From a virus: 21,966 nt of DNA. The translations under genes and the position numbers were made by a program. The stretch spans positions 1 to 21,966 of IMG/VR virus record IMGVR_UViG_3300044611_000499; one strand, written 5' to 3'. This document shows, piece after piece, positions 6,079-21,966 of the stretch (positions within the stretch are counted from its first letter, which is position 1; the number at the start of each line of letters is the position of its first letter). The notes below the pieces were generated by a model. That model saw nothing but the letters and a program-made list of their open reading frames with translations. It was not told the origin of the DNA and searched no databases.

Positions 6079-7668
6079 CTATTCAGAAGAGCGACCTTCC
6101 CCTTTCGGATTTCGTCCGCTAACTGTGGCTGCGCCATCAGACTGATTATTAGTTCTTTCAGAGTCTCTTTCACGGTTAGCGTTGTCACTGGAAACCTGCT
6201 GTGGCTTTAGGTCAAGAACCTTATCTCCGCCATCACGCTGTGGCAGTCTGAGCGCAACTCTTGCTTCATTTGGAGTCATGACCTGAGTCTTTACATATCT
6301 CTCAAGGATCTGAGACTGAGCAATTTCATCTGTTAGAGTTAGTTCGTTGAACTTAAATTCTAAAATATCTGTCTTTTCACGCATAATCTTGTTGATCATT
6401 TTTTCTAAATTTCTTTGTGCAGGTCGTGCAACCTGCTCCTTAAATGTGCGGTCTTGTGACAATGCAGAAGCAATTGCAGAAGAGTCTGAACCACCTAATT
6501 TTGAAAGAGGGACCTGATGCGCTACAAGGATGTCATCTCTATTTGATTTACGATATTCTTTAAAGGATCCTTCTTGAACACCATTTTCAATAGGTTCCAT
6601 TTTAAAATCAACTTTATTGTTTTCTGAATCTCCAGGAAGTGGAATATAAAGTGTTCTGTGATTTTGTCCTTTAAGTCCAGTCTGTAAGAATCTAAACATT
6701 TTATCTTCCGCATCGGCTGACAACTTTGCACCCTTAAGAGTTACAACATATCTTGGAGTTGCTTTATTTTGGAAATAGTCAATGTTGTATTGTGATGCTA
6801 ATGAATCACCGTGCAAGGCGCTAATTGCAGAAATAATATCTGGAACTCCATAAAAAGTATTTAGTGGAGAATATTGCTTAAAATGAATAATCTCATTTGG
6901 TCTTGGATCATCCGTTACTGGGTTTTGATTCTTTGCACCAAAGTTGCGGAAGTAAACTACTTTGTTTCCAATAACTTGAACAAAGCCATCACGAAGTCTA
7001 CGAACTCTCATTGTTGTTGCTGGAATGTGACCTACATAACCAATCTCACCCTTGACTGTTCTACCAATTTCAAGGTATCCATTTCCAATGGCTTGCATAT
7101 CTGTAAAAACTTTTTCCATTGTAGAGGTAAAAGAGTCTTCATCATTTAAAGACTCTAGCCAGTCTGTCAACTCAATCTTTGCCCTTTCAATTCTTTTACG
7201 TGCTCTATCTGTTGCACCAGAATCAGTAGACGACTCCAACTTTAGCATTGTCCTTGGTGATACTTCAAAGTCATATCCTAGGCCAACAATGTTCTCAACC
7301 TTTGCGTCAATAGCAGCGTGGTTAGCAAATGATGTATCATAAAAACTGGCTAGTTCGTAAACATTCCAAGGTGGTGTAATTACATCAAAAAGTCCATAGC
7401 CATTTCTATAAAGCATTCCAGGATTAATTTCTTTTGACTTAGCCCCGTCAATTCCTGTGCTTACGGCATTTGCAGAATCTAAATATGCTGGTGTTGCTTC
7501 AGCCTTTGACATTCTTGATGCACGGCGCTTGAAGTTATTATCTAAACCAGTAAGAGTCTTTAGTTCATCCCAAGACTTATTAAATGGATCTTGTTTTGCA
7601 AAAGTATCATCTGCTTTTGCAATTTGATCAATTCTTGCACCAATAAAATATTCGTTATCTTCAGACAT
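6079..7668 (-). CDS. Portal protein
   Basis: This protein has 529 residues. It forms the dodecameric ring at one head vertex through which DNA is packaged and released, and onto which the tail docks. The region from about residue 250 to 480 shows the phage portal family pattern: IIHFKQYSPLNTFYGVPDI, then a long helix (ALHGDSLASQYNIDYFQN), KATPRYVV, a stretch ending in GGSDSSAIASALSQDRTF, and the C-terminal helix with MTPNEARVALRLPQRDGGD. The 'NEaR..lgl' motif near the end is typical of HK97/PBSX-type portals. The C-terminal 45 residues are hydrophilic and probably disordered. Its start overlaps the stop of the upstream small gene as TAATG with GGAG a short distance before it. The next genes are protease-scaffold and capsid, the normal order. 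Terminase, usually just upstream, is absent from this window. Confidence 0.93.
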   Translation of the reverse strand: MSEDNEYFIGARIDQIAKADDTFAKQDPFNKSWDELKTLTGLDNNFKRRASRMSKAEATPAYLDSANAVSTGIDGAKSKEINPGMLYRNGYGLFDVITPPWNVYELASFYDTSFANHAAIDAKVENIVGLGYDFEVSPRTMLKLESSTDSGATDRARKRIERAKIELTDWLESLNDEDSFTSTMEKVFTDMQAIGNGYLEIGRTVKGEIGYVGHIPATTMRVRRLRDGFVQVIGNKVVYFRNFGAKNQNPVTDDPRPNEIIHFKQYSPLNTFYGVPDIISAISALHGDSLASQYNIDYFQNKATPRYVVTLKGAKLSADAEDKMFRFLQTGLKGQNHRTLYIPLPGDSENNKVDFKMEPIENGVQEGSFKEYRKSNRDDILVAHQVPLSKLGGSDSSAIASALSQDRTFKEQVARPAQRNLEKMINKIMREKTDILEFKFNELTLTDEIAQSQILERYVKTQVMTPNEARVALRLPQRDGGDKVLDLKPQQVSSDNANRERDSERTNNQSDGAATVSGRNPKGEGRSSE

Positions 7669-8072
7669 TACTCTTCATCTCCATACATTGCAATAGTATC
7701 TTTTGCTGCTTGAACAGCGCCAAGGTCATTTAGGTTAGGAATAAGCCCAGCCTTCATTCTATCTACTTGTTCGCTATACTCTTCATCAGATATTCTTCCC
7801 ATTCCTGGGAAAAAATGCGGTTCGCCTTCTGGCTCACCATAATATTCTGCAGCCTCTTTTAGTTTTGCAAGTTGTCCTAGATCACCACGGAATGATGGGA
7901 CATTTAGAATGTTTCCTTCTCCATCTGTAAACCACTTGCCATTCTTTCTTTTCCAAACATAAACTCCCCAGTTATAATTCTTTTCAACCATTGTTACTTT
8001 TGTTTCACCAATTTGACCTGGCATGCGTGGTTTGCCATTTTTACCAAAAAGTAGTCCGTCTTTATTGTTCAT
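7668..8072 (-). CDS. Small phage protein of unknown function coupled to the portal gene
   Basis: This protein has 134 residues from the ATG at 8072; a GTG two codons upstream (8078) is the alternative start. There is no ribosome binding site, but an extended -10 box ends 7 nt before the ATG, so a leaderless message is likely and favours 8072. The N-terminal half is basic and rich in Gly and aromatics (MPGQIGETKVTMVEKNYNWG, then WKRKNGKWFTDGEGNI) and looks like a small beta domain. The C-terminal half is acidic and helical (EYSEQVDRMKAGL, ending AMYGDEE). The stop overlaps the portal start, so the two are co-translated. I do not recognise a family. A packaging or portal-assembly helper would fit the position. 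Confidence 0.7.
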   Translation of the reverse strand: MNNKDGLLFGKNGKPRMPGQIGETKVTMVEKNYNWGVYVWKRKNGKWFTDGEGNILNVPSFRGDLGQLAKLKEAAEYYGEPEGEPHFFPGMGRISDEEYSEQVDRMKAGLIPNLNDLGAVQAAKDTIAMYGDEE

Positions 8073-8079
8073 AACCACA

Positions 8080-8088
8080 AGTATACCA
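8080..8088 (-). promoter_or_regulatory. Extended -10 promoter in front of the portal operon, leaderless type
   Basis: The minus strand reads TGGTATACT between the stop of the LamG gene and the start at 8072. The box ends 7 nt before the ATG, the distance at which transcription starts on or next to the A of ATG. No ribosome binding site is present. This would be the promoter for the small gene and the portal. Confidence 0.55.
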
Positions 8089-8090
8089 TA

Positions 8091-11000
8091 TTAAAGGGCG
8101 TCTTGAACTGTCTTGTTCCATACTACGTCAGAATATAGGGAGTATTCATAGTTTTTAAGCGATAGCCCATAATTATCTCCAACCACTATCTTATTTGTCC
8201 CAATATATGCGCTATAAATGTCTGCTGGGTCTACACCATAAAGGTTTGTTGTTGACTGAATCAGGGTCTCATTCCAAGTAAATGATCCATACCAATACGT
8301 CCAGTTTAGGTCATAAGATCCTGAACCCATTAACTTAAACCATGGTCTGGTAAACTTTTTCTGAACCTGCTGCAATCTTATAGACTGGTAGTAAGATATA
8401 GCATTAAAAAGTAGTGGTCCATTTAATTTTAAAGACCCAGAGTATTCTGAAAAATCTAACAACTTAGAAAATGAAATGCCCAAGAATGCCCACTCTCCCA
8501 CAGTTATCACTGCCTCACGAACCACGTTTCCATTCAGATAATACCCAATGCCGTTTTCTCTTTGACCATTTTTATAGTTAATGGCATATATCTTTCCACG
8601 CTTTCCATCTTGCTGTATGGCCTGAATATAAAATTTAATTAAACTATTCTTATCTTCTACCTGAAATATTTCTGTTGGGGATAATGGGAATGCATCTTTG
8701 TCGTATCTAATTCCAGCCTGCAAAGCCATTACCTTGTAGTTTGGATTTTTTGATTTATTAATTGGAATAGCGATTCCACGATCAACCATAGGATCATATC
8801 CACCACGTAGTTCAATTCCACTTGTTCTTGTTAGATATAAATATGGAGAACTTCCCTTGTATATTGTGAATGGGTTTAGAGCCTTATAGTCATAATAAAT
8901 TCCAGACTTTTGATATGGGTATACATCCTCTGAAAACCTTGTTCCAATAGGGTTAAAACTATTAGAGTTAAACGCTTGAGAGGCTACTTGCATTTTTTTA
9001 ACTTTAAGTGGATTTGATAAAATTCCAGAAACATTAAAGTCTAAATGCATAACTAATGCTAAATCATTAAAATCAACACCCTTTGGTGGATAGGCGATCA
9101 TGTTATTAACAAACTCATACTTTGTTGTTGTCCATCCATCTAATGGCTGAATTACTCCGTTTTGAGGTGCGTCATCTACATCTGTAAAAAATCTATGATT
9201 TGCATTTGCACCTGTTGCAATATACTGAAAACTAATATAAGACTTTAGTAACGCAGCATCTGTATCATAGGCGTAGTTTTTATTTACACGATTTTTTAAA
9301 TCTAGGTAATCGTTGTATCCAGTATAAAGATGGTTATCTAATGAAGAGTATGTTCTTTGAAGTGGTGCCTGATACTCATACTGTAACTCTTGATATGTCC
9401 AAGTTCCAGTCTTCTTTTCTACCTCTTTATATATATTTGGAGTTGGATAGTCAATGTTCAACTGCAAAAAGTCTAAATCATAATACATAGAACCAGTTGT
9501 GTCTTCTACATACTTTGCAAAATATGTAAGGGGAACATAGTCTTCCCAGTATCCGTTTGAGTCTATATCAAGTATAAATTTTTCCATATATAATCTTGGC
9601 CTCAACGTATAGGTTCCTACGTGAGAATGCAAATTACTTACAGCAAAACTTCTGGGGCTTCCTCCATCTAAAAAGTAATCCCACATAGATCTACTATATA
9701 AGTCTGAATCCGCAATATTTTCTGATAAATTATCAAACGCATTTTCATTAAATAGGACTACTCCAGTTTCTCCAAAAGAATCTTTTATTTTAGAAAGATT
9801 TCTTGAATTACAAAAACCAAAAGAATATATATTGCCCAAAAATGTATTCGATAATTCCCTAGATCCTCCCACATAAACTGAAAGGTTAGATGGGTTGCCA
9901 AAGAAGGTTGAAAGGTTTTGTCCATAATAGTCCGAGAATGTTTTAATATTAAAACCAACAGCAAATACTTCATTAATAATATATCCTGGGGCAGATTCTA
10001 TTACTGACTCTTCCCCATTAAACTTAAACCTATACTTAACGTCTTCCATTTCTAAATCAACTGATAGGTAATTGCCATTTGTCAAGTCTTCTATTCTAAA
10101 CAAAATTTGTTTATTTTGAGTCAAAGTTTTATTTTTAAATATTCCATACAATGCTTTTGTTTGACCACCAATTAGATCTATATTATTAAATGCAAGGTTG
10201 CCCTGTAGGTTATCAAATTCTGTAGACTCAAGGTAACGACTTATTCCAAAGGTTATGAAGTTGTCCTGTTCTGCCTGAATTGATGTAGAATTGTGTGTAT
10301 TTATAAAGTTTAATGCGTTAGACTTGTTTAGCGTTATAGATGGTAGTTGGTAATTTGGAATTGATAAAATATTATTATCGACTCTGAGATTGTCAACGAT
10401 TCCTTGTGACCATCTTCCTATATCTGGGTAGGTATAGTTATTTGTATATTTAGAAAATGGAAAATCAAAGTATACGGATGTTCCACCAAATCCACTATTG
10501 ATTGATTCTGCAAACTCTACGCCCTGGCCATAAACAAATCTTCTTTTAGCAACAGTTGTAGGAACCTTATAAGAATATACAGCAACACAGTCAAGTTCAA
10601 ACCTTGGAATATATTCTGATGCGTAAAACCCCAACCAGTCCTGATCAATATTAATTCCTCCAATTTCTTTTGATTTATCTGGAAATGTAATACTAGACTG
10701 ATCTATTGTAAATGAAATAACTTCATCTCCGTTTAAAAGAAGGCTTGCAGTATCATCTACAACTCGGATATGTATGAGCATTGGTCTGGACCATTCACCA
10801 ACACAGTGTGCCCCAACATAGTCACCAACCTTTAACTTTAAGAATGGACCACTTACGTATAATCCATCTGTTGATTTTATTGGACCAAAAATCCTTGTAT
10901 CATCAGAAGTGTAGGAATCAATTTTTAACCACATCTCTACGGTATACTCTTTGTGCTTTCCACTTTCATTTAAAAATCCACCGCCTGGAATAATTAAAGA

Positions 11001-11827: not shown

Positions 11828-13858
11828 CTACTTGGCTTTAATTTCGCAATAATCTGTTGTGCAGTAAGCCTCGCCCATCGCCTCTAGATTATCTACACCG
11901 TCATAAATAGCGCCAAAATCAATATGCTTTAACTTTCCAACATATCCTTCATATTCTTCTTCAGTAATCTGAGTATATGGCTGCTGTGGATATGTGTGAT
12001 TTCCCATTGGTAGGAATGAGACTGCCTTTAACTGTCCCTCATACATATGCAGCGCAGGTGCGACATGCTTCGACTCTGTTTCTTTGTCAAATGAAAGTGT
12101 TACAGAAACACCATTATCTGACCAATACTTTTGAGCAGTTGCTGCAAGAGCAATCTTTTCAAATAATGTAACATCCTTTTCGGATCTTGGATGACCTGAC
12201 TTAATTGGGAAGTATACAACTGACGTGTTTGCTGATACAACATCTTTTTCAACATTGTAATTTGCTGCTCTAAATAGGTGAAGCATTGGATCTGTATCTC
12301 CAAATCTTACTGCTCGAAGGAAAAAGTTTCCTCCAGGTCCCCAGTGAACTCCAGGAGTTGCACCAGAAAGAATTGAAACTGATCCTGATGGCTTAACTGT
12401 TGTTACACGAATTGATTCACGAACACATAGCCATTCTGAATACTGATGATCATAGTGACGGATCTTTTTATATCCTTCATCCATCCATTCACGGACTGCT
12501 GGTAATCCCTTTTGATCAGCGAAGGATGCAATACCAGTTAGAGAAGTTCCAATACGACGGTTTCTCTGCATGATACCGTTTGTCTGCTGCCAGTGTGTTG
12601 GTAGCAGTGTAACAGTCTTTCCATAAAGGTAAGCAAACTTTAATGTCTTGAGGAAGTCCTCCTTGGATTCATGTCGATTAAGGTGAACTTCAACAAGTGT
12701 GCAAAGTTCATACGACTCCAATGGCTGCTCCGCACAAGGATTAAAGCCCATAACACGATAGTCTTTTCCATCTGCAGGATCTGCTAGACGACCAAAGTTA
12801 CGAGCAACATCAAGCCAGATAAAACCTGGCTCTCCATTGTTAACAATTAGATCAGTATACTTCTCGTAATCCATTCCAACTGTTGCAGAAACTGAGTTAT
12901 TTGACATCCAAGCCCAACCTGGATTTTCTGGGTCAAACGAGTTGCGCTCTGGGAATACTTCAGAATTCTTAAGATTAATAAAGTCTTCATCTCCTGCTGC
13001 ACCTAAAGCAAGAGTTGCAGAACGACGAACATTTCCAGAAACAACACATGTTCCAATAAGATTAATGATATCCGTAATAGCACGGCTATCAAGAGTTTCT
13101 CCTGCTCTACCGCCGATTACCTTGTCGATCTGTGCATGTAGTTGAATCAAGGGGGCTGGTCCGCTGGCTACCCCTCCAAAGCCCTTAATGGGTGCTCCTA
13201 GAGGACGGATGAGGTCATAGTTAAACTTCTGAATAGGCTGGTTCTGACGAAGGTAAGAGTTTAGCAAAATGCGAACTGATTCTACCCAACCTTCACGAGT
13301 GTCTGGAATATCAAAGATCGCTGCTGGTTCTGAAGGAGTATAGATCTGAAAACCTTTTTCCTGTCCAACTGTATCAAAGCCAACACCAATGCCAAGCATT
13401 AGAGCATCCATTACCCAAGCAAATAGGGCTCCTGGATCATTCTTGTCGAGGTCTTTTGTTGAAACCATCGCACAGTTTTGTAGTGCTGCAGAGTTTTTCT
13501 TCTCCATAGTCATAGGAGTTCCAAATGTCCACATACCTCTTCCTGGTGGTGTCCACTTTAACTCAAACATTCTTTGGAATGCTTCTTGTGCAGACTTCTG
13601 AGCCTTATAGTCATTCCAAGGCAAACGGTTTTCTTTAGCATGGTTCTTCTGAACTGAATACATACCCTCAATTACACGACGACAAACTTCATGCCATCTT
13701 TCCTTAGTTCCATCCTCCTTCACACGAGAATATGTGCGAATAAAAGTAATCTCTCCAAGTGAGTTTTCTGCTGCATCTTTAAAACCAAATGGGCTTTCCT
13801 GAGACTTATACTTTTCTACAAAATCCTCTGGGAGTTTAAAACTAAAAAAATCTGACAT
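11828..13858 (-). CDS. nrdJ: Adenosylcobalamin-dependent (class II) ribonucleoside-triphosphate reductase, monomeric
   Basis: This protein has 676 residues, close to the Lactobacillus leichmannii-type enzyme (about 740). It reduces ribonucleotides to deoxyribonucleotides with a radical made from adenosylcobalamin, without oxygen or an NrdB partner. Key residues are present: the disulfide pair Cys129 (LQNCAMVS) and Cys386 (ELCTLVE), the thiyl radical Cys375 and Glu377 in FNPCAEQP, and the C-terminal swinging pair Cys666/Cys671 in YCTTDYC, which is re-reduced by thioredoxin. SGNVRRSATLALG (274-286) and VKPSGSVSILSG are conserved barrel motifs. No intein or frameshift interrupts it. It has its own promoter and an AAAGGA ribosome binding site 8 nt before the ATG. 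Its place amid virion genes, next to the LamG gene, is unusual. The host must supply cobalamin. Confidence 0.95.
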   Translation of the reverse strand: MSDFFSFKLPEDFVEKYKSQESPFGFKDAAENSLGEITFIRTYSRVKEDGTKERWHEVCRRVIEGMYSVQKNHAKENRLPWNDYKAQKSAQEAFQRMFELKWTPPGRGMWTFGTPMTMEKKNSAALQNCAMVSTKDLDKNDPGALFAWVMDALMLGIGVGFDTVGQEKGFQIYTPSEPAAIFDIPDTREGWVESVRILLNSYLRQNQPIQKFNYDLIRPLGAPIKGFGGVASGPAPLIQLHAQIDKVIGGRAGETLDSRAITDIINLIGTCVVSGNVRRSATLALGAAGDEDFINLKNSEVFPERNSFDPENPGWAWMSNNSVSATVGMDYEKYTDLIVNNGEPGFIWLDVARNFGRLADPADGKDYRVMGFNPCAEQPLESYELCTLVEVHLNRHESKEDFLKTLKFAYLYGKTVTLLPTHWQQTNGIMQRNRRIGTSLTGIASFADQKGLPAVREWMDEGYKKIRHYDHQYSEWLCVRESIRVTTVKPSGSVSILSGATPGVHWGPGGNFFLRAVRFGDTDPMLHLFRAANYNVEKDVVSANTSVVYFPIKSGHPRSEKDVTLFEKIALAATAQKYWSDNGVSVTLSFDKETESKHVAPALHMYEGQLKAVSFLPMGNHTYPQQPYTQITEEEYEGYVGKLKHIDFGAIYDGVDNLEAMGEAYCTTDYCEIKAK

Positions 13859-13948: not shown

Positions 13949-14953
13949 TTAAGAATTGAAAATGCTGTGGTCAATCCAAGTTTTTGGAGTAATGCTACTT
14001 ACAATCTCTACTGGTAAATAAAAATCAAAATCTTTAGGTCCACGCCTTTTAACAAATTCTATCATATCTTTAATAGTTTTGTCAAGAGGTGTTACTGGGT
14101 CATACCCAAGAATAGCCTTTGCTTTATTTGCAGAGCAGTTTGCAAACCTAACCTCTTTTGGCCTATCTGGTAAGAATATTGGATCTAAATCAAAACCAAT
14201 TATATCTGCAATCTTTTCTGCCAAATCCTTTATTGTTATAAAATTTGAGTCTGGCCCAATATTAATTATTTCCCCATTCCCAACATCGGTTTCAACTATT
14301 TTTACAATTGGATCTACAACATCTGATATATCTGAAAAACATCTCATCTGCAATCCGTTGCCATATATTACTGGCTGTCTACCATTAAGCATTCTGTTAA
14401 TCATGATACCTGCAACATTCCTAAAAGGGTCTGTATAGACCTGTCCTGGACCTATTATATTATGTGGGACTACAATTGCATACTCCATACCGTGAACTTC
14501 TGAGAGGACCTTCAAAGACTCCTCAAAGGCATACTTGGAGATGCCATACGGGTCTTGTGGCTTTGGCCTCATATCCTCAGTAAACGGAACAACTTCTTGA
14601 GTTCCATATCTCGCCATACTAGAAGTAAAGATAAATTTTTTGACATTAGCCTGAATCGAGCATGTTAATATGTTCATAGAAATTCCGTAAGTATTGTCTG
14701 TAATTGTTTTTGGTGAAAATATTGACAAGCCTTCGTGAGGTGTGCAAGCAGCGTGAATCACTACATCTACACCTTCAAAAATATCAGACTTTACGGACCC
14801 ACAATCATCTTTGATAAACTCAATGCCGTCTGGAATGTTATCCTGATATCCACCAGTAAGATTGTCAAGACCCACAACTTCATGGTTTTTAGATAGGCTT
14901 CTTGCTAAAGAACTACCTACCAATCCAGCAACACCTGTAATTAAAACTTTCAT
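13949..14953 (-). CDS. NAD-dependent epimerase/dehydratase (extended short-chain dehydrogenase)
   Basis: This protein has 334 residues, the usual length for UDP-glucose 4-epimerase and related sugar-nucleotide enzymes. It shows the N-terminal Rossmann motif GVAGLVGS (residues 7-14), an acidic end of strand 2 (GLDNL), an Ala-rich HAAC segment, TSSMARYG (110-117) and the catalytic YxxxK as Tyr136 and Lys140 in PYGISK. The C-terminal domain contains the usual dimer and substrate-binding elements (IIGPGQVYTDPFRNVAGIMI, then DVVDPIVKIVE). It probably epimerises, reduces or dehydrates a nucleotide sugar; which one cannot be read from the sequence. The start overlaps the glycosyltransferase stop as TAATG, so the two are made together and likely act in one sugar pathway. 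Confidence 0.88.
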   Translation of the reverse strand: MKVLITGVAGLVGSSLARSLSKNHEVVGLDNLTGGYQDNIPDGIEFIKDDCGSVKSDIFEGVDVVIHAACTPHEGLSIFSPKTITDNTYGISMNILTCSIQANVKKFIFTSSMARYGTQEVVPFTEDMRPKPQDPYGISKYAFEESLKVLSEVHGMEYAIVVPHNIIGPGQVYTDPFRNVAGIMINRMLNGRQPVIYGNGLQMRCFSDISDVVDPIVKIVETDVGNGEIINIGPDSNFITIKDLAEKIADIIGFDLDPIFLPDRPKEVRFANCSANKAKAILGYDPVTPLDKTIKDMIEFVKRRGPKDFDFYLPVEIVSSITPKTWIDHSIFNS

Positions 14954-16065
14954 TATAGATGAACCACGTTCTTTAGTTTGATAAATTCATTAACCATCCC
15001 CTGATGAGATTTTCCCCAACCGATAGCACCATAGTATTCAGATAATACTAGGGCATCAATAGTGTTGATTCCATTATTTAAAATATTATTTATTGAAGAA
15101 ACAACATTGTCACAAAATCCATCTTCTACATTATTTAAAAACTCTTTTGCTTTATTTTTGTTATTAAGAACACAGTGATATATTGCCAATCTAAGATTTA
15201 TATCATTTCTTATATTAGTATCATTTACTATATCTAGCAAACTTTCTAAGGATTCTCCAGCATCTGCCATTCTATAAACAGACATCGCTAAAGTTATAAG
15301 ATAAAAAGATAAAACAGTATACTCTCTTTCTTTATCTTGGAAATCTGCTGTTTCATAAAAATTAATAAAATCATGATAATATCTAACAAAGTTTTCATAA
15401 TCTTCTGATTCAAAATAAGACAAGGCTATTAGTTTTAGTGTATGAAGTTTATGATCTCTTGAGGAGTATAATTCAATAGTTTTTAATTCATTTATAAAAG
15501 CCTCTATATACAAAGGCTCTCTGTGCTCAAATCTTTCAAGGCTCCCGATCAAATGCTTAATTACAATTGGAACGGTCAATCTTTCATTTAGATCTCTTTT
15601 GTAGTCAAAGGTTATGGGTCTATACTTAACCCAAGAGATTCCCCCTCTTTCGTGAATCCAAGAACTTGTTGTAGTAACAACTGAGTCAATATAACCAGTG
15701 TTAGACGTGTATTGATGTTCTGCAATGCCAAATCCTAATTCTATATCTGACAGTATCTCTTTCCAGTTCTCAGTTACAATTACCTGATCAAGGTCAAGGC
15801 AGACGCATATATCTATATCATTTGGCAGAAGCGCTAGTGCTGTATTCTTTGCTTGAGTTTCTGACCATGGCAAAAAGGATGCGGATAAAACATTTATACC
15901 CAGACTTTTAGCAATTTCGACTGTGTTATCTGTAGATCCAGTATCTAATAAAAAGATATAGTCTGCATTTTTAGCAGATTCATACCAAGTTAGGATGTTT
16001 GACTCTTCATTTTTACAAACTCCATAGACCGCAACTCTATTCTTCTTTGACACCTTTAGCCCCAC
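14953..16065 (-). CDS. Family 2 (GT-A) glycosyltransferase with helical C-terminal region
   Basis: This protein has 370 residues from a GTG at 16065; another GTG at 16053 is possible and both overlap the small gene upstream. GT2 signatures are clear: YGVCKNEE (14-21), LLDTGSTDNTVEIAKSLG (39-56), FLPWSETQAKN (64-74), and the metal-binding Asp91-x-Asp93 in CLDLDQV. This variant, with a W..Q.KN element and a C-terminal helical/TPR-like half (from about residue 200: HTLKLIALSYFESEDYENF and further helix pairs), is common in bacteria and phages that glycosylate surface glycans or proteins. It transfers a sugar from a nucleotide donor to an unknown acceptor. It is coupled to the epimerase gene. No membrane segment is visible, so it acts in the cytoplasm. 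Confidence 0.88.
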   Translation of the reverse strand: MGLKVSKKNRVAVYGVCKNEESNILTWYESAKNADYIFLLDTGSTDNTVEIAKSLGINVLSASFLPWSETQAKNTALALLPNDIDICVCLDLDQVIVTENWKEILSDIELGFGIAEHQYTSNTGYIDSVVTTTSSWIHERGGISWVKYRPITFDYKRDLNERLTVPIVIKHLIGSLERFEHREPLYIEAFINELKTIELYSSRDHKLHTLKLIALSYFESEDYENFVRYYHDFINFYETADFQDKEREYTVLSFYLITLAMSVYRMADAGESLESLLDIVNDTNIRNDINLRLAIYHCVLNNKNKAKEFLNNVEDGFCDNVVSSINNILNNGINTIDALVLSEYYGAIGWGKSHQGMVNEFIKLKNVVHL

Positions 16066-16159
16066 ATCTTAGACATGTCTGATAGGTCTTTAGAGTGTAT
16101 GGACAATGAGACTCTTCAATTTTGTGTCCGAGAAATCTGCACCTAATAGAGTTAATCAT
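16037..16159 (-). CDS. 40-residue Cys/His mini-protein
   Basis: This small gene fills what would otherwise be a gap between the ferredoxin and glycosyltransferase genes. The ATG at 16159 overlaps the ferredoxin stop by 8 nt, and the TAG at 16037-16039 lies inside the glycosyltransferase start. The product begins MINSIRCRFLGHK and has four Cys and two His: Cys7, His12, His18, Cys19, then C-L-R-C at 29-32. The N-terminal C-R-F-L-G-H-K and C-terminal C-x-x-C are like small phage proteins of the DUF1660 type and point to one zinc site. The ribosome binding site is weak (AGAAG), so coupling to the ferredoxin gene is probable. Function unknown. Confidence 0.75.
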   Translation of the reverse strand: MINSIRCRFLGHKIEESHCPYTLKTYQTCLRCGAKGVKEE

Positions 16160-16352
16160 TTTCAACTTCTAAAAACGATATTGCTCTATTAGGGCAGTGT
16201 GATTGTGCACTTTTAATTCCAGCAAGATTTGAGTCATCTACCAAATATTTCCAAGTTTTTCTTTCGCTATCAACTAAATCAAAAACTTGTGGTGCGTCAA
16301 AAATGCACTGACCCCAAGCCTGACAGGCTTTAGAAATGCTTACCTCAATCAC
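16152..16352 (-). CDS. Small [3Fe-4S]-type ferredoxin
   Basis: This protein has 66 residues from a GTG at 16352 with GGAG upstream. The cysteine spacing Cys10-x5-Cys16 ... Cys53-Pro54, with IFDAPQVFDL after the second Cys, is the pattern of the small single-cluster ferredoxins that serve cytochromes P450 and other oxidases in actinobacteria. The residue between the first two cysteines, where a fourth ligand would make a [4Fe-4S] cluster, is not Cys (CQAWGQC), so a [3Fe-4S] cluster is likely. It carries single electrons. No reductase or P450 is encoded nearby; the host must supply the reductase. A possible client is an oxidase or radical enzyme elsewhere in the phage; the adjacent 2OG oxygenase and the B12 reductase do not normally need ferredoxin. 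Ferredoxins of other kinds occur in cyanophages. Confidence 0.88.
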   Translation of the reverse strand: MIEVSISKACQAWGQCIFDAPQVFDLVDSERKTWKYLVDDSNLAGIKSAQSHCPNRAISFLEVEND

Positions 16353-16807: not shown

Positions 16808-16816
16808 ATTATACCA
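16808..16816 (-). promoter_or_regulatory. Extended -10 promoter in front of the mini-Rossmann gene, leaderless type
   Basis: The minus strand reads TGGTATAAT, the full extended -10 consensus. It ends 6 nt before the ATG at 16801, so the mRNA would start at or next to the ATG. The box overlaps the last codons and stop (CTG GTA TAA) of the oxygenase gene, so part of the match is dictated by coding. It would drive the block from 16801 to the epimerase. Confidence 0.5.
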
Positions 16817-17471
16817 GTGGAATCCAGTGTTGTTCCCATTCTTTAGGAATAAACCTAAGTGGGATAACATCGTAAGCCATCGTAACTCTTGGACCTTCCC
16901 AATCCCAATCACCCATAGCATGTGGGTGCCCAGTTTCTGAAAGAATTGCACGATTGTTTTTATTTACATTTTCAATTTCCTCATCAAATACACGGTAATG
17001 AGTTATTGAAGGCTCAGCGTTAACACAATAGTATCCATGGAAGTGTGGGGCTCCATCACCACCGTGTTCATGCCAGTCTAACTTTCCAACATGATTATAG
17101 TTAATGTTAAACCAACCCTGAACCATAAACTGCTCTTTAATAAAGTCAAGTTCGTAGTATTCACAGGCATCTTGTGCCATATCTCTGACTGCACGGAAAA
17201 GTGTGTGAATGTTTTCATCGTAGATCTGGAACACATTATACTTATTCCAGTTTACAGTAGTTACGCTACCAGAGTTGTCCCATGGAGTGTTTTCATTTTT
17301 AGGACCAGAAATTAATTCTCCATTTTTAATTCTGTCGTAAGTAACATGAAGAACCTTTTCTAGTTCTTCCAAGTTATTCATATCAATCTGTCTCTCAAAG
17401 AACTTCTGAGGCTTTGATGACTTACTGGTGCTTTTCATTTTAGAGTCACCATATACTTGCTGATCTTCCAT
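16809..17471 (-). CDS. 2OG-Fe(II) oxygenase-like protein
   Basis: This protein has 220 residues. I chose the ATG at 17471 (MEDQQVYG) because AAGGAG lies 6 nt before it, next to the upstream stop; the frame's earlier ATG at 17528 overlaps that gene by 47 nt without a ribosome binding site. Residues 1-30 are hydrophilic and unstructured. The core shows the phage 2OG-FeII_Oxy_5-like pattern: QGWFNINYNHVGKLDWHEH (118-136) with His134/His136, FHGYYCVNA (144-152), a distal HPH (182-184), and a C-terminal PRVTMAYDVIP in which Arg195 would bind 2-oxoglutarate. The usual HxD acidic ligand is not obvious (HEH is there), so activity is not certain. Such enzymes hydroxylate proteins, small molecules or nucleobases; the substrate is unknown. 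Confidence 0.68.
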   Translation of the reverse strand: MEDQQVYGDSKMKSTSKSSKPQKFFERQIDMNNLEELEKVLHVTYDRIKNGELISGPKNENTPWDNSGSVTTVNWNKYNVFQIYDENIHTLFRAVRDMAQDACEYYELDFIKEQFMVQGWFNINYNHVGKLDWHEHGGDGAPHFHGYYCVNAEPSITHYRVFDEEIENVNKNNRAILSETGHPHAMGDWDWEGPRVTMAYDVIPLRFIPKEWEQHWIPLV

Positions 17472-17481
17472 TTCTTTCTCC

Positions 17482-18243
17482 TTATCTGTATTTTTTTCTA
17501 ATCCAACGATGCTTCTTGTAGAAGCCATAGATATAATTTCTTTTTCTTTCTAGATCCCAACTGCCTTCATTTTGAAGTTTATGATCTACTTCCATCTGCC
17601 AATTTGCTCTTTTAATAGGTATCATAGACATAATTGGGGTTCCTTCTGGAATTACCCCTTCAAAATCTTTTCTTAGGAAAAAAGTAACCACGTTGTTTGT
17701 AGACCACCTGTCTGCATCTTGAATAGCAGTCATAGTTATAAATGGTAAATCCCATCTTCCAACTGGATGAGTAATCATTAATGACCAACCATCTGGAAGT
17801 TTTGTTCCCCATCTCATATCCCAAACAAAGTGAATTGGATAACAGCCAGATGGAACTGGCAACTCAATGTGTCCACGCATCTCTACTGGTCTTGGACGAT
17901 CTTCATCCCAAGTTATATCTGGCCTGTTTGGATCATCTGTTTTTTTAACTGTGATTGTGGTAGGCAAACTGTAATGATAACCTGCAGTTAATGCATCAAA
18001 ATATGGCATGCAATGCTTTACACTGATTGCTGCAGAGTCTGCACCACGGTTATTCATAATTCCTAATTTTTGAATATCGTCATTTTTTTGATACAGAGGT
18101 CTGTCTTTCCACCACTTTGGCAAATTTGTGATTGCTGGAACTGGTGGTGGTGTTGTTTCAATATATGCGGTTGAAGTCCAGAACTTTACAGTTAAATCTT
18201 CTAAAGGTTCAGGGTTAGCATATTTATCTGAGTGTAGGTCCAT
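17482..18243 (-). CDS. Uncharacterised protein, second of two tandem paralogues
   Basis: This protein has 253 residues, starts MDLHSDKYANPEPL, and is soluble with no signal peptide. It shares a colinear set of features with the gene just upstream (18245-18952): a Trp-pair segment (NLPKWWKD), a Cys-centred helix (VKHCMPYFDALTAGYHYSLP), a WG-rich segment (GTKLPDGWSLMITHP), and a C-terminal strand pair (FLRKDFEGVIPEGTPIMSMIPIKRANW). It differs from its partner by an insertion near residues 95-125 (WDEDRPRPVEM and after) and a basic C-terminus (YGFYKKHRWIRKKYR). The gap to the partner is 1 nt, so translation is coupled. The pattern recalls DUF6065-like phage proteins, from memory only. Function unknown. 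Confidence 0.72.
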   Translation of the reverse strand: MDLHSDKYANPEPLEDLTVKFWTSTAYIETTPPPVPAITNLPKWWKDRPLYQKNDDIQKLGIMNNRGADSAAISVKHCMPYFDALTAGYHYSLPTTITVKKTDDPNRPDITWDEDRPRPVEMRGHIELPVPSGCYPIHFVWDMRWGTKLPDGWSLMITHPVGRWDLPFITMTAIQDADRWSTNNVVTFFLRKDFEGVIPEGTPIMSMIPIKRANWQMEVDHKLQNEGSWDLERKRNYIYGFYKKHRWIRKKYR

Positions 18244-18244
18244 C

Positions 18245-18952
18245 TTATTTAAAAACCTTCTTTTCCCACATTAGAGCCTTGTATGCTCCACCAAACTTAT
18301 ACTTTAACTTAACTCCAAGTGTGCTAAAAACTTTAAGCAAAGGCTTTTCTAGTATATCCGCTGACCATTCTTCTCTTTTGTAAGGTATACATTGAACAAT
18401 TGGTGTTCCAGCCTCAATTACTCCTTTAAAACCTCTTTTTACCCTAAAAGAAAATGGACCATCAGAAACATACATATCTGTATCAATAATTGCTGGGACT
18501 GTTTCAAATGGTAGGTTATTATAAAAGGATGGATGAATAAAGAGTGTGCTGTATCCTTTTGGAGTTCCAACTACCCACATAGGATGAATCCTAAAGATAT
18601 CATCCATAAATAATTCACGATCAAAATCCCAGGATTCAATCTGATCTCTTGTGTGCATAGAGATTGACTGCCTGTGAAGTTCTTGAACCTGAAACTCTAC
18701 TTTATCTCCAGTTGCATCAATGTATATGTCGCATGGTGTCTTTAGTAAATACCCAGTAGTTAGTAAGTCAAGTATTCCTGGACATTTTTTTACTGTTTCG
18801 TTATACTGCCCATTAATTACCTTTTTTTCTCCACCAGCATACGGCTGTGACTTTCTCCACCAAGTTGGCAAGTTCTTTGACATTGGCTCTGGCTTTGGAG
18901 CATATTCAATAACATATTCATTTTTTGGAATGAACGTAATTTTTTTACTCAA
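18245..18952 (-). CDS. Uncharacterised protein, first of two tandem paralogues (TTG start)
   Basis: This protein has 235 residues from a TTG at 18952, set by a GGAGG ribosome binding site about 9 nt upstream; the start overlaps the previous gene's end. It matches the next gene in order: NLPTWWRK, VKKCPGILDLLTTGYLLKTP, GTPKGYSTLFIHPSFYNNLP, then FRVKRGFKGVIEAGTPIVQC and IPYKREEW. The shared order of motifs in two adjacent genes shows a tandem duplication followed by divergence. No membrane segment or catalytic signature is visible. The segment 'I..G.PI.q.iP.+r.eW' recalls DUF6065 proteins that sit beside phage modification genes; this is memory, not a search. Both copies precede the oxygenase gene, which hints at a shared pathway. 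Confidence 0.72.
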   Translation of the reverse strand: MSKKITFIPKNEYVIEYAPKPEPMSKNLPTWWRKSQPYAGGEKKVINGQYNETVKKCPGILDLLTTGYLLKTPCDIYIDATGDKVEFQVQELHRQSISMHTRDQIESWDFDRELFMDDIFRIHPMWVVGTPKGYSTLFIHPSFYNNLPFETVPAIIDTDMYVSDGPFSFRVKRGFKGVIEAGTPIVQCIPYKREEWSADILEKPLLKVFSTLGVKLKYKFGGAYKALMWEKKVFK

Positions 18953-19694: not shown

Positions 19695-20807
19695 TTAGTT
19701 GCCAGAGCCGTTAGGGTAAATTGGGTTGCCATCTTCATCAAGAATTGCATTACCCTCATTGTCTGTTAGCCATGAGATAGAATCGTGAGTCAACATGTTC
19801 TGTGTAAAGAAGATATCATAAGGTTCGCAGTTAATTGTATAAACTTGTTCGATGTAAGCAATTACCTCAACATCTGTTACTGGGATCCAATCTCTTTCTT
19901 CTAGAGACCATACGTGATACTCTTCTGTAATGTTTTCAGATCTTACAAAAGAAACAACTCCATCTGGTCCTTTTGCAAGAATTAAGTGTGGCGCAGTAAA
20001 GATGTCACCATTAATGACTATTGCGGTATCTGAAACATAAGATGAAACAGATACAACCGTTGTTTCAACTACTCCAAGAGCCTGAAAGTCTTCTTCGGTA
20101 GAACTAAAGTTTGGAATTCCTTGAATTGTTGGATCTAGGTTTGCAATATCAAGAGAGTAAAGTTTGTCTCCTACCTGAATCTCTTGTGCTTGCTTGATAC
20201 CGTCAACTGTGTGAACTCCTGTAGTTGCTCCAAGAGAGATGAATCCAGGATATCCAGGATAGATACCGTTCATTGCAACCGTGGAAAATCCTCCGTATGA
20301 GTGAGTAAATCCGTGGTAGAATCCTGCGTAGTGTGTAAACCCTGCATAGTGTGTAAAGCCATGGTAGAATCCATGGTAGAACGCTGAGTAGTGTGCGAAG
20401 CCATGGTAGAACCCATGATAGAACCCTGCGTAGTGTGCAAAGCCTGCATAGTGTGTAAACCCGTGATAAAACCCATGATAGAAGCCTGCGTAGTGTGTGA
20501 AACCATGGTAAAATCCGTGGTAGAATCCTGCGTAGTGTGTAAACCCTGCATAGTGAGAAAATCCAGAGTATACATACTGATAGTAGTTTACGCTAACGTT
20601 CGACCCAATGTTTACAACGGTTCCTGCTGCAGTTCCTTGAGAAATAACCTTTTGGTCAAGTCCAGCGTCACCAGTAGTAGTAGATGTTTCAGTATAGGTT
20701 AGGCCATTAGAAGACAGTGCAGCCTGATATTGGGTTCTTGTCATTCCTGATAGGTTTGGAACGCTTACCTTGCGTATTCCTCTATCGCCAGTCTTTTGAA
20801 GTGCCAT
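19695..20807 (-). CDS. PASTA - aromatic/His repeat - Hint domain protein (putative host-contact protein)
   Basis: This protein has 370 residues, with GGGAGA 8 nt before the ATG. Three parts follow. Residues about 14-76 are one PASTA domain (VPNLSGMTRTQYQAALSSNG onward, ending VNIGSNVSVNYY), a fold that in bacteria binds peptidoglycan. Residues 82-174 are an array built of G-F-x-H-Y-A and F-Y-H-G units, almost only Gly, Phe, His, Tyr, Ala and Thr. Residues 191-342 are a Hint (hedgehog/intein) domain with block A (SLGATTGVHTVDG, then IQVGDKLYSLD), block B TxxH (Thr271-Ala-Pro-His274) and a C-terminal LTHD-S. It follows the tail fibre gene directly, so a role on the virion tip in wall binding is likely. 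Alternatives are a secreted or capsid-displayed adhesin. The domain calls are from visible motifs; the function is inferred. Confidence 0.82.
   Translation of the reverse strand: MALQKTGDRGIRKVSVPNLSGMTRTQYQAALSSNGLTYTETSTTTGDAGLDQKVISQGTAAGTVVNIGSNVSVNYYQYVYSGFSHYAGFTHYAGFYHGFYHGFTHYAGFYHGFYHGFTHYAGFAHYAGFYHGFYHGFAHYSAFYHGFYHGFTHYAGFTHYAGFYHGFTHSYGGFSTVAMNGIYPGYPGFISLGATTGVHTVDGIKQAQEIQVGDKLYSLDIANLDPTIQGIPNFSSTEEDFQALGVVETTVVSVSSYVSDTAIVINGDIFTAPHLILAKGPDGVVSFVRSENITEEYHVWSLEERDWIPVTDVEVIAYIEQVYTINCEPYDIFFTQNMLTHDSISWLTDNEGNAILDEDGNPIYPNGSGN
19782..20237 (-). other. Hint domain (intein-like) region inside the PASTA-repeat protein
   Basis: Residues 191-342 of the protein at 19695-20807. Residue 1 of the domain is Ser191 where inteins have Cys1 (Ser is also found); the block B TxxH is intact (Thr271, His274); the end is His341-Asp342 followed by Ser343 where inteins have His-Asn then Cys, Ser or Thr. 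The length of about 152 residues equals a mini-intein. It may be an active autoprocessing domain or a relic. Confidence 0.6.
20286..20564 (-). repeat. Tandem repeat array coding for GF(T/Y/A)H units
   Basis: This stretch codes for residues 82-174 of the PASTA/Hint protein. Units such as HYAGFTHYAGF and HGFYHGFTHYAGF recur about seven times in a mixed order, and the DNA itself is repetitive (recurring TAGTGTG and CCATGGTAGAA on the plus strand). The repeats keep other frames open over the same stretch. Copy number is likely to vary by recombination or slippage. Confidence 0.85.
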
Positions 20808-20848: not shown

Positions 20849-21966
20849 TTATGAAGACGCTAGATCTCCAACGACAACGAATGTATTTGCTGCTCGCTTA
20901 ATAATTGTTGCACCAGACCAAGTTGTTCTTGTCTTGGTAGTAGGAGTTCCATTTACTGTTACCCCTGCTGCGCCTGCAATAGTCACTTGTCCTCCTGAAA
21001 CCTGAAGAACTTCAAGTCTTTGTCCATCTGGCCAGAAAGAGTTATCAGATGGAATCGTAAAGGATGCCCCTGAACCTGAGTTAAACTCAATAATTGAGTT
21101 AACATCTGCTGATGCAATTGTATAGGCTCCTGACTTTGACGAAATTGCTGCTGTCTTATCTGCCTTTGTTGCCAAAGTTGCTGAAAGTGCAGTTCCGTTT
21201 AGTGTTACAGATGATGCTGCAGGTAGTGCAACAGTTCCTGTAAATGTTGGTGAAGCAAGAGGTGCTTTAGATGCAAGGTTAGTTGTAACTGTTGAAGCAA
21301 AGTTTGCGTCATCTCCAAGTGCTGCTGCTAGTTCATCAAGAGTGTTTAGCGCTCCTGGTGCTGCTGCGATTACTGCGTCAACTTCTGATTTAACAAATGC
21401 TGTTGTTGCAATCTGTGTTGTGTTGGTTCCTGCTGATGCAGTTGGGGCAGTTGGAGTTCCAGTAAGTGCTGGTGAAGCCAAAGGTGCCTTTGAAGCAACT
21501 ACTGAGTCAGCGTATGTATTTGCTGAGGCGATTGCATTTGTTCCTGCGGTATCTGCATAAGTCTTAGTTGCAAGGGCTGCAGTATCTGCAATTCCGTGAA
21601 CTGTTGTTGTCTTTGCATCATGTGAATTAAAGTTTGAAGTTGTAGTTGCAAGAGTTGCTTCTGCTGTATCGAGATCACCCTGCAGCGTGTCAATGTCAGA
21701 CTTTGCTGTTGTAACGTCTGACTCCAATGTTGCAATAGATCCAGAATGAGATGTTGTTAAAGTCTCTAGTCCAGAAACATCTGATACTAAAGTAGCAGAG
21801 GTAGACTCAAGTGCTGTAATATCTGTTTTTGCTTCTGTAACATCTGATTCCAATGAAGTGATGCTTCCAGTGTGAGAGGCAGTTAGAGTTTCTAGAGCAG
21901 TAATGTCAGATGCACCAGTTGCAGCGCTTGACTGCAAAGTTACAACGTCTGACTCTACGTCAGAAA
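20849..21966 (-). CDS. Tail fibre protein, C-terminal part (starts outside the window)
   Basis: About 371 residues are visible. The frame is open to the window edge with no start signal, and the upstream codons continue the same repeat, so the true N-terminus lies outside. The first 110 residues are a parallel coiled coil of recurring LESDVT(E/T)AK(T/S)DI and LETLT(A/T)SH(T/S)GSI units, as in trimeric fibres. A phage tail fibre repeat region follows (ASKAPLASPALTGTPTAPTA, GTNTTQIATTAFVKSEVDA, then a second ASKAPLASPTFTG). The end is the small C-terminal domain common in fibres (NSIIEFNSGSGASFTIPSDN, later SGGQVTIAGAAGVTVNG, closing with ANTFVVVGDLASS). It is a shaft with a receptor or trimerisation tip that contacts the host. 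The next gene, PASTA/Hint, is probably part of the same host-recognition apparatus. Confidence 0.87.
   Translation of the reverse strand, partial: SDVESDVVTLQSSAATGASDITALETLTASHTGSITSLESDVTEAKTDITALESTSATLVSDVSGLETLTTSHSGSIATLESDVTTAKSDIDTLQGDLDTAEATLATTTSNFNSHDAKTTTVHGIADTAALATKTYADTAGTNAIASANTYADSVVASKAPLASPALTGTPTAPTASAGTNTTQIATTAFVKSEVDAVIAAAPGALNTLDELAAALGDDANFASTVTTNLASKAPLASPTFTGTVALPAASSVTLNGTALSATLATKADKTAAISSKSGAYTIASADVNSIIEFNSGSGASFTIPSDNSFWPDGQRLEVLQVSGGQVTIAGAAGVTVNGTPTTKTRTTWSGATIIKRAANTFVVVGDLASS

Follow-up and report, generated by a model that had tools for sequence, protein, structure and literature searches.

The window, a stretch of 21,966 nucleotides of viral DNA, encodes on its minus strand a 370-residue protein that ends in a Hint domain, and the assignment of residues 191-342 to this fold class is a firm one, based on homology from a 60-member profile together with the modelled fold. 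Tentatively, and with somewhat less than even confidence, we read the protein as a host-facing tail-fibre accessory of an actinobacterial phage, in which the Ser1-type Hint would cleave itself off a part made of a PASTA domain and an aromatic stalk. The coordinates 19695-20807 given for this gene in an earlier, sequence-only reading are correct, and its parts are laid out as follows.

19695-20807, minus strand: open reading frame of 370 aa with the order PASTA, aromatic/His stalk, C-terminal Hint
20589-20768, minus strand: PASTA domain, residues 14-73 (Pfam PF03793, E 6.8e-8)
20301-20564, minus strand: uncharged GF-x-HYA / GFYH array of 18 units, residues 82-169
19782-20237, minus strand: Hint domain, residues 191-342, with BIL domains, inteins and Hedgehog among its profile and fold matches
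20235-20237, minus strand: codon of Ser191, Hint position 1 and predicted nucleophile
19986-19997, minus strand: block B, T271-x-x-H274
19782-19844, minus strand: blocks F/G, residues 322-342, VYTINCEPYDIFFTQNMLTHD, ending in His-Asp and not in His-Asn
19698-19781, minus strand: C-terminal tail of 28 residues after the Hint, the first being Ser +1
20849-21964, minus strand: 3' part of a tail-fibre gene, directly upstream and cut by the window end (tail-fibre PHROGs)

A PASTA pattern had been claimed at residues 14-76 and an array of GF-x-HYA and FYHG units at 82-174, and both were recovered within slightly narrower limits. PF03793 reaches 32.8 bits (cut-off 23.2) over residues 14-73 (model positions 1-60 of 64), and the 18 GF-x-H units, each of six (GFTHYA) or four (GFYH) residues, occupy residues 82-169. 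From residue 82 onward, 95 residues consist only of G, F, H, Y, A, T and S and carry zero charge, and the array is also a tandem repeat at the DNA level (Tandem Repeats Finder score 352). AlphaFold (AF2) gives the 370-residue protein a pLDDT of about 80 over the PASTA domain, about 22 over the array and about 92 over most of residues 190-345. The array is accordingly predicted to be disordered and flexible, and the PASTA domain would bind the cell wall or peptidoglycan.

For the Hint domain, the single window sequence matches Pfam Intein_splicing at E 0.034 (14.4 bits, below the curated cut-off of 35.8) and phrog_38766 at E 3.7e-5, and a PDB search with it returned weak, irrelevant matches only. 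The profile built from 60 members, run against the PDB with hmmsearch, reached the Clostridium thermocellum BIL domain 2lwy at E 2.4e-5 and the gp41-1 intein at 5e-4, and within the same set of 60 relatives Intein_splicing is matched by 32, Hint_2 by 13 and phrog_38766 by 53. Two AlphaFold models, with pLDDT of about 92 over the Hint domain, were searched with Foldseek (E 3.6e-8 to 6e-4), and all 50 matches listed are Hint structures; the PDB entries among those listed include BIL2 6y75, BIL 2lwy, the DnaB and gp41-1 inteins and Hedgehog 6tyy. In a set of 2152 ORFs, a profile made from the PASTA/GFxHYA relatives of the window protein also picked out the Hint at the C-terminus of proteins from Erwinia and Yersinia jumbo phages, with E-values of 4e-11 and 3e-10. 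Profile and fold searches thus agree with the Hint blocks previously proposed at residues 191-343, and blocks A, B and F/G lie where they had been placed. The peptidase S74 chaperone family has no Pfam match in the window protein at E up to 1, and the fold is that of a Hint.

The residues expected for the first step of Hint chemistry are strongly conserved. In an alignment of 60 sequences, from which the relative L022 and two jumbo-phage proteins were excluded, Ser191 (position 1) and His274 (B:10) are among 14 columns invariant in 60/60, and 57 sequences have Ser or Thr at position 271 (B:7). Of 73 distinct proteins, 70 have Ser at position 1 and the two from jumbo phages have Cys; the residue is lost in L022, the sole complete relative without Ser1, in which His-B:10 is absent too and the ORF is retained. 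The patterns of the main profile scan contained neither Ser191 nor His274, so the conservation of these two is not built in; that of block F partly is, because block F patterns were the main means of collecting the relatives. The Ser191 codon is TCN in 55 sequences and AGY in 15, and the presence of this serine in both codon boxes points to selection for serine itself; the conservation of Ser1 and His-B:10 could also be structural in role. The first acyl shift has been assigned to position 1, Thr-B:7 and His-B:10 (PMC4031507). At the other end of the domain the last residue is Asp in 57 of the 60, preceded by Phe, His or Tyr; inteins ending in Asp exist (PMC4031507), and in B-type BIL domains the C-terminal motif is missing and cleavage takes place at the N-terminus (PMC7765530). 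Taken together, the Ser1-type pattern fits an N-terminal acyl-shift self-cleavage in which splicing would usually have been lost, and such cleavage is plausible because Ser1 and the block-B Ser/Thr-x-x-His are kept. At F:4, where inteins usually have Asp, these Hints have Ser/Thr, a difference that argues for caution on self-cleavage; in addition, Ser1 esters are less easily formed than Cys1 thioesters.

The window protein belongs to a wider family. The same domain order was sought in other phage genomes: a first scan gave 22 loci, and a profile scan of IMG/VR gave 225 relatives, of which 80 were kept and about 70 analysed. Their common plan is an N-terminal PASTA (1-4 copies) or Fn3, a changeable aromatic or proline-rich stalk and a C-terminal Hint, which ends 3-28 residues from the C-terminus in all of them and 3-13 outside the window clade. 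Among 67 full-length proteins, 24 have a Pfam match to PASTA and 31 to fn3, with four PASTA copies in one relative and two in another. Stalks are of the GFxHYA, FFPP, FxPFGF, NPGF, IIAEP or PPV type, many of them about one-third aromatic and uncharged. The design requires neither PASTA nor the aromatic/His array, since relatives have Fn3 or stalks of other types instead, and the idea that the array is indispensable was dropped.

A tree of the Hint domains places the window clade together with relatives that have NPGF or other stalks and apart from other GFxHYA proteins (SH-aLRT 96, quick method). The N-terminus and the stalk both switch type repeatedly across the tree, with counts of switches that are rough because the labels come from simple patterns. 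One record, L072, carries two paralogues (1-882 and 7329-8591) whose Hint DNA is identical at 457 of 462 positions (98.9%) and whose N-terminal proteins are about 50% identical, a pair that suggests gene conversion. Switching on the tree and this pair together point to module exchange. Long records carry one copy in 16 of 17 cases and two in the remaining one. Searches by tblastn of 50,697 phage records gave zero matches with the whole window protein or its Hint and, with the Hint of a divergent relative, matches in jumbo phages only; a scan of bacterial and archaeal genomes confirmed no relative.

The setting of the gene is conserved as well. It had been described as lying directly after a tail fibre gene, and the upstream gene indeed has many tail-fibre PHROG matches; a full-length copy of it in the related locus L005 has an N-terminal Mtd_N (E 4e-13) and a coiled coil. 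The tail-fibre gene is immediately upstream of the Hint gene in 24 of 26 related loci, and closer relatives share a conserved set of downstream genes. Just downstream lie two adjacent paralogues of phrog_7084, a family of unknown function (17482-18243 and 18245-18952, minus strand), which are kept in close relatives. The gene at 16809-17528 (minus strand) lies close to the Hint gene in the majority of related loci and is duplicated in some of them (L079, L081); its reading as a 2OG-Fe(II) oxygenase, a guess from HxD...H motifs, found no support in Pfam or PHROGs and was rejected. A 66-residue protein at 16152-16352 (minus strand), retained in closer relatives, weakly matches a single-cluster 4Fe-4S ferredoxin (Fer4_15, E 0.0016, below cut-off). 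Further along the minus strand are a nucleotide-sugar epimerase and glycosyltransferase pair beside the tail genes (13949-16065), found in some relatives only, and a class II (B12-type) ribonucleotide reductase (11828-13858) with up to 98% identity between related phages, above that of its neighbours.

The head genes resemble those of Streptomyces phages (portal 48%, capsid 42%). WhiB scores above cut-off in all nine records longer than 90 kb, with a control search positive only in Corynebacterium, and the window itself, at 22 kb, has no WhiB. Because all nine long records carry it, actinobacterial hosts are likely for the family. The actinophage literature suggests a freshwater origin (PMC6802176), and the host actinobacteria are probably aquatic.

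According to the reading that we tentatively favour, the protein would carry a binding module, here PASTA, at its N-terminus, followed by an aromatic stalk that is uncharged and flexible, and a Hint of the Ser1 type at its C-terminus. Once folded, the Hint would convert the peptide bond between Ile190 and Ser191 into an ester at Ser191, assisted by Thr271 and His274. Resolution of this ester would free the PASTA-stalk part from the Hint, whose role would be that of a C-terminal domain needed for maturation or assembly and then removed. The homologous Hint of the jumbo phages, with canonical Cys1, TxxH and HN, also speaks for this reading. A chaperone-like purpose of the Hint can be suggested by analogy only. 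We infer the location in the virion, the cleavage, its timing and its purpose, as well as wall binding through PASTA. The sequence-only reading had proposed a host-wall adhesin whose display or crosslinking depends on self-cleavage. Domain order and the tail-fibre-locus setting make a host-facing role likely, and this part stands; self-cleavage is plausible, with a C-terminal His-Asn that is not conserved counting against it, and nothing here favours crosslinking.

The main rival, on balance unlikely, is a catalytically dead Hint whose part would be that of a stable, beta-rich domain for the tip or for attachment, with PASTA and stalk remaining joined in the virion. Loss of the C-terminal His-Asn and replacement of the Asp at F:4 are consistent with it, as is the degenerate L022, which retains its ORF after losing both key residues, and the nearly identical Hint DNA under different N-termini in the L072 paralogues is what a shared docking module would be expected to show. 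However, a structural role explains less well why Ser1 and His-B:10 are invariant in the alignment and why Ser1 is kept in two codon boxes. Alternatively, though improbably, an outside nucleophile could attack the Ser1 ester, and the PASTA-stalk part would then be moved covalently to a virion protein or the host wall, comparable to Hedgehog and cholesterol. The corresponding picture of a self-ligating adhesin system, in which the Hint passes on a display module (wall-binding or Fn3) and heads and stalks can be exchanged, is equally improbable. The Hog-like pattern of kept N-terminal chemistry and lost C-terminal motif, the presence of Hedgehog among the fold matches and the common Hint under modular N-termini all agree with such a transfer, but there is no region resembling sterol recognition, only 3-28 residues follow the Hint, and no acceptor or product is known.

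Very improbably, and then only in the window clade, the domain could function as a mini-intein and join the PASTA-stalk part to the tail of 28 residues, splicing being conceivable there because of the junction H341-D342-S343. Ser1, T-x-x-H, His341-Asp342 and Ser+1 are all present in the window protein, and inteins that end in Asp are known (PMC4031507). This H-D-S is not conserved in the family, the domain is C-terminal and not inserted, and Phe or Tyr before the Asp in most relatives, together with a variable +1 residue, indicates that splicing is not under family-wide selection. It is also distinctly improbable that the protein acts outside the virion, either released at lysis or working in the infected cell, given its conserved place directly behind the tail-fibre gene and a jumbo-phage homologue whose PHROG is annotated as virion structural. 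Among established classes, a class 3 intein with Cys327 as nucleophile was rejected, as Ser1 is present and Cys327 falls at F:7, three positions off F:4 in our own alignment; a type A BIL domain does not match, with the C-terminal His-Asn not conserved and Asp as the last residue in 57 of 60; and a Hedgehog Hog domain was dismissed on account of Ser at position 1 and only 28 residues after the Hint.

Of the known systems, B-type BIL domains share the Hint fold, the N-terminal chemistry residues, the missing C-terminal His-Asn and variable modular host proteins, but the phage family differs by having Ser1 almost throughout and by its tail-fibre-locus setting. The likeness to type B is an agreement of motif pattern with the published definition, and the best fold and profile matches are the BIL structures 6y75 and 2lwy. 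The phrog_38766 proteins of two cultured phages, the Erwinia and Yersinia jumbo phages, likewise carry a C-terminal Hint, here after a low-complexity collagen part, and are annotated as virion structural; unlike the window family they have canonical Cys1, TxxH and HN, Gram-negative hosts and no PASTA or Fn3 match. Hedgehog (Hog-Hint) also joins an N-terminal ligand module to a C-terminal Hint whose chemistry stops at the first acyl shift, whereas it has Cys1 and a sterol-recognition region and is an animal protein. The T-even gp38 adhesin and fibre chaperones of the intramolecular or transient kind (PMC10579305) share a gene position beside the tail fibre, glycine-rich or removable domains and a tendency to recombine, but no homology to the window family was detected and the likeness is one of role only.

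The sequence-only reading knew of no described system with this order of domains. For the literature this holds, as no description of a PASTA - stalk - Hint order in phages was found in open-access publications. It does not hold for databases: in BFVD, two proteins of uncultured Caudovirales phage, A0A6J5NY54 (PASTA_pknB) and A0A6J5MFV5 (Fibronectin type III), have the same Hint fold under names that cover the PASTA or Fn3 part only, and they probably belong to the window family. Fold and chemistry are known, and the architecture is new to the open-access literature but not to databases. Hint autoprocessing, familiar from inteins, Hedgehog and bacterial BIL domains, would extend to a large unnamed class of proteins at the tail-fibre loci of actinobacterial phages. 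If active, these Hints would join the fibre chaperones as a second self-processing domain type of the tail-fibre region, and the family would offer a natural series of swappable heads and stalks.
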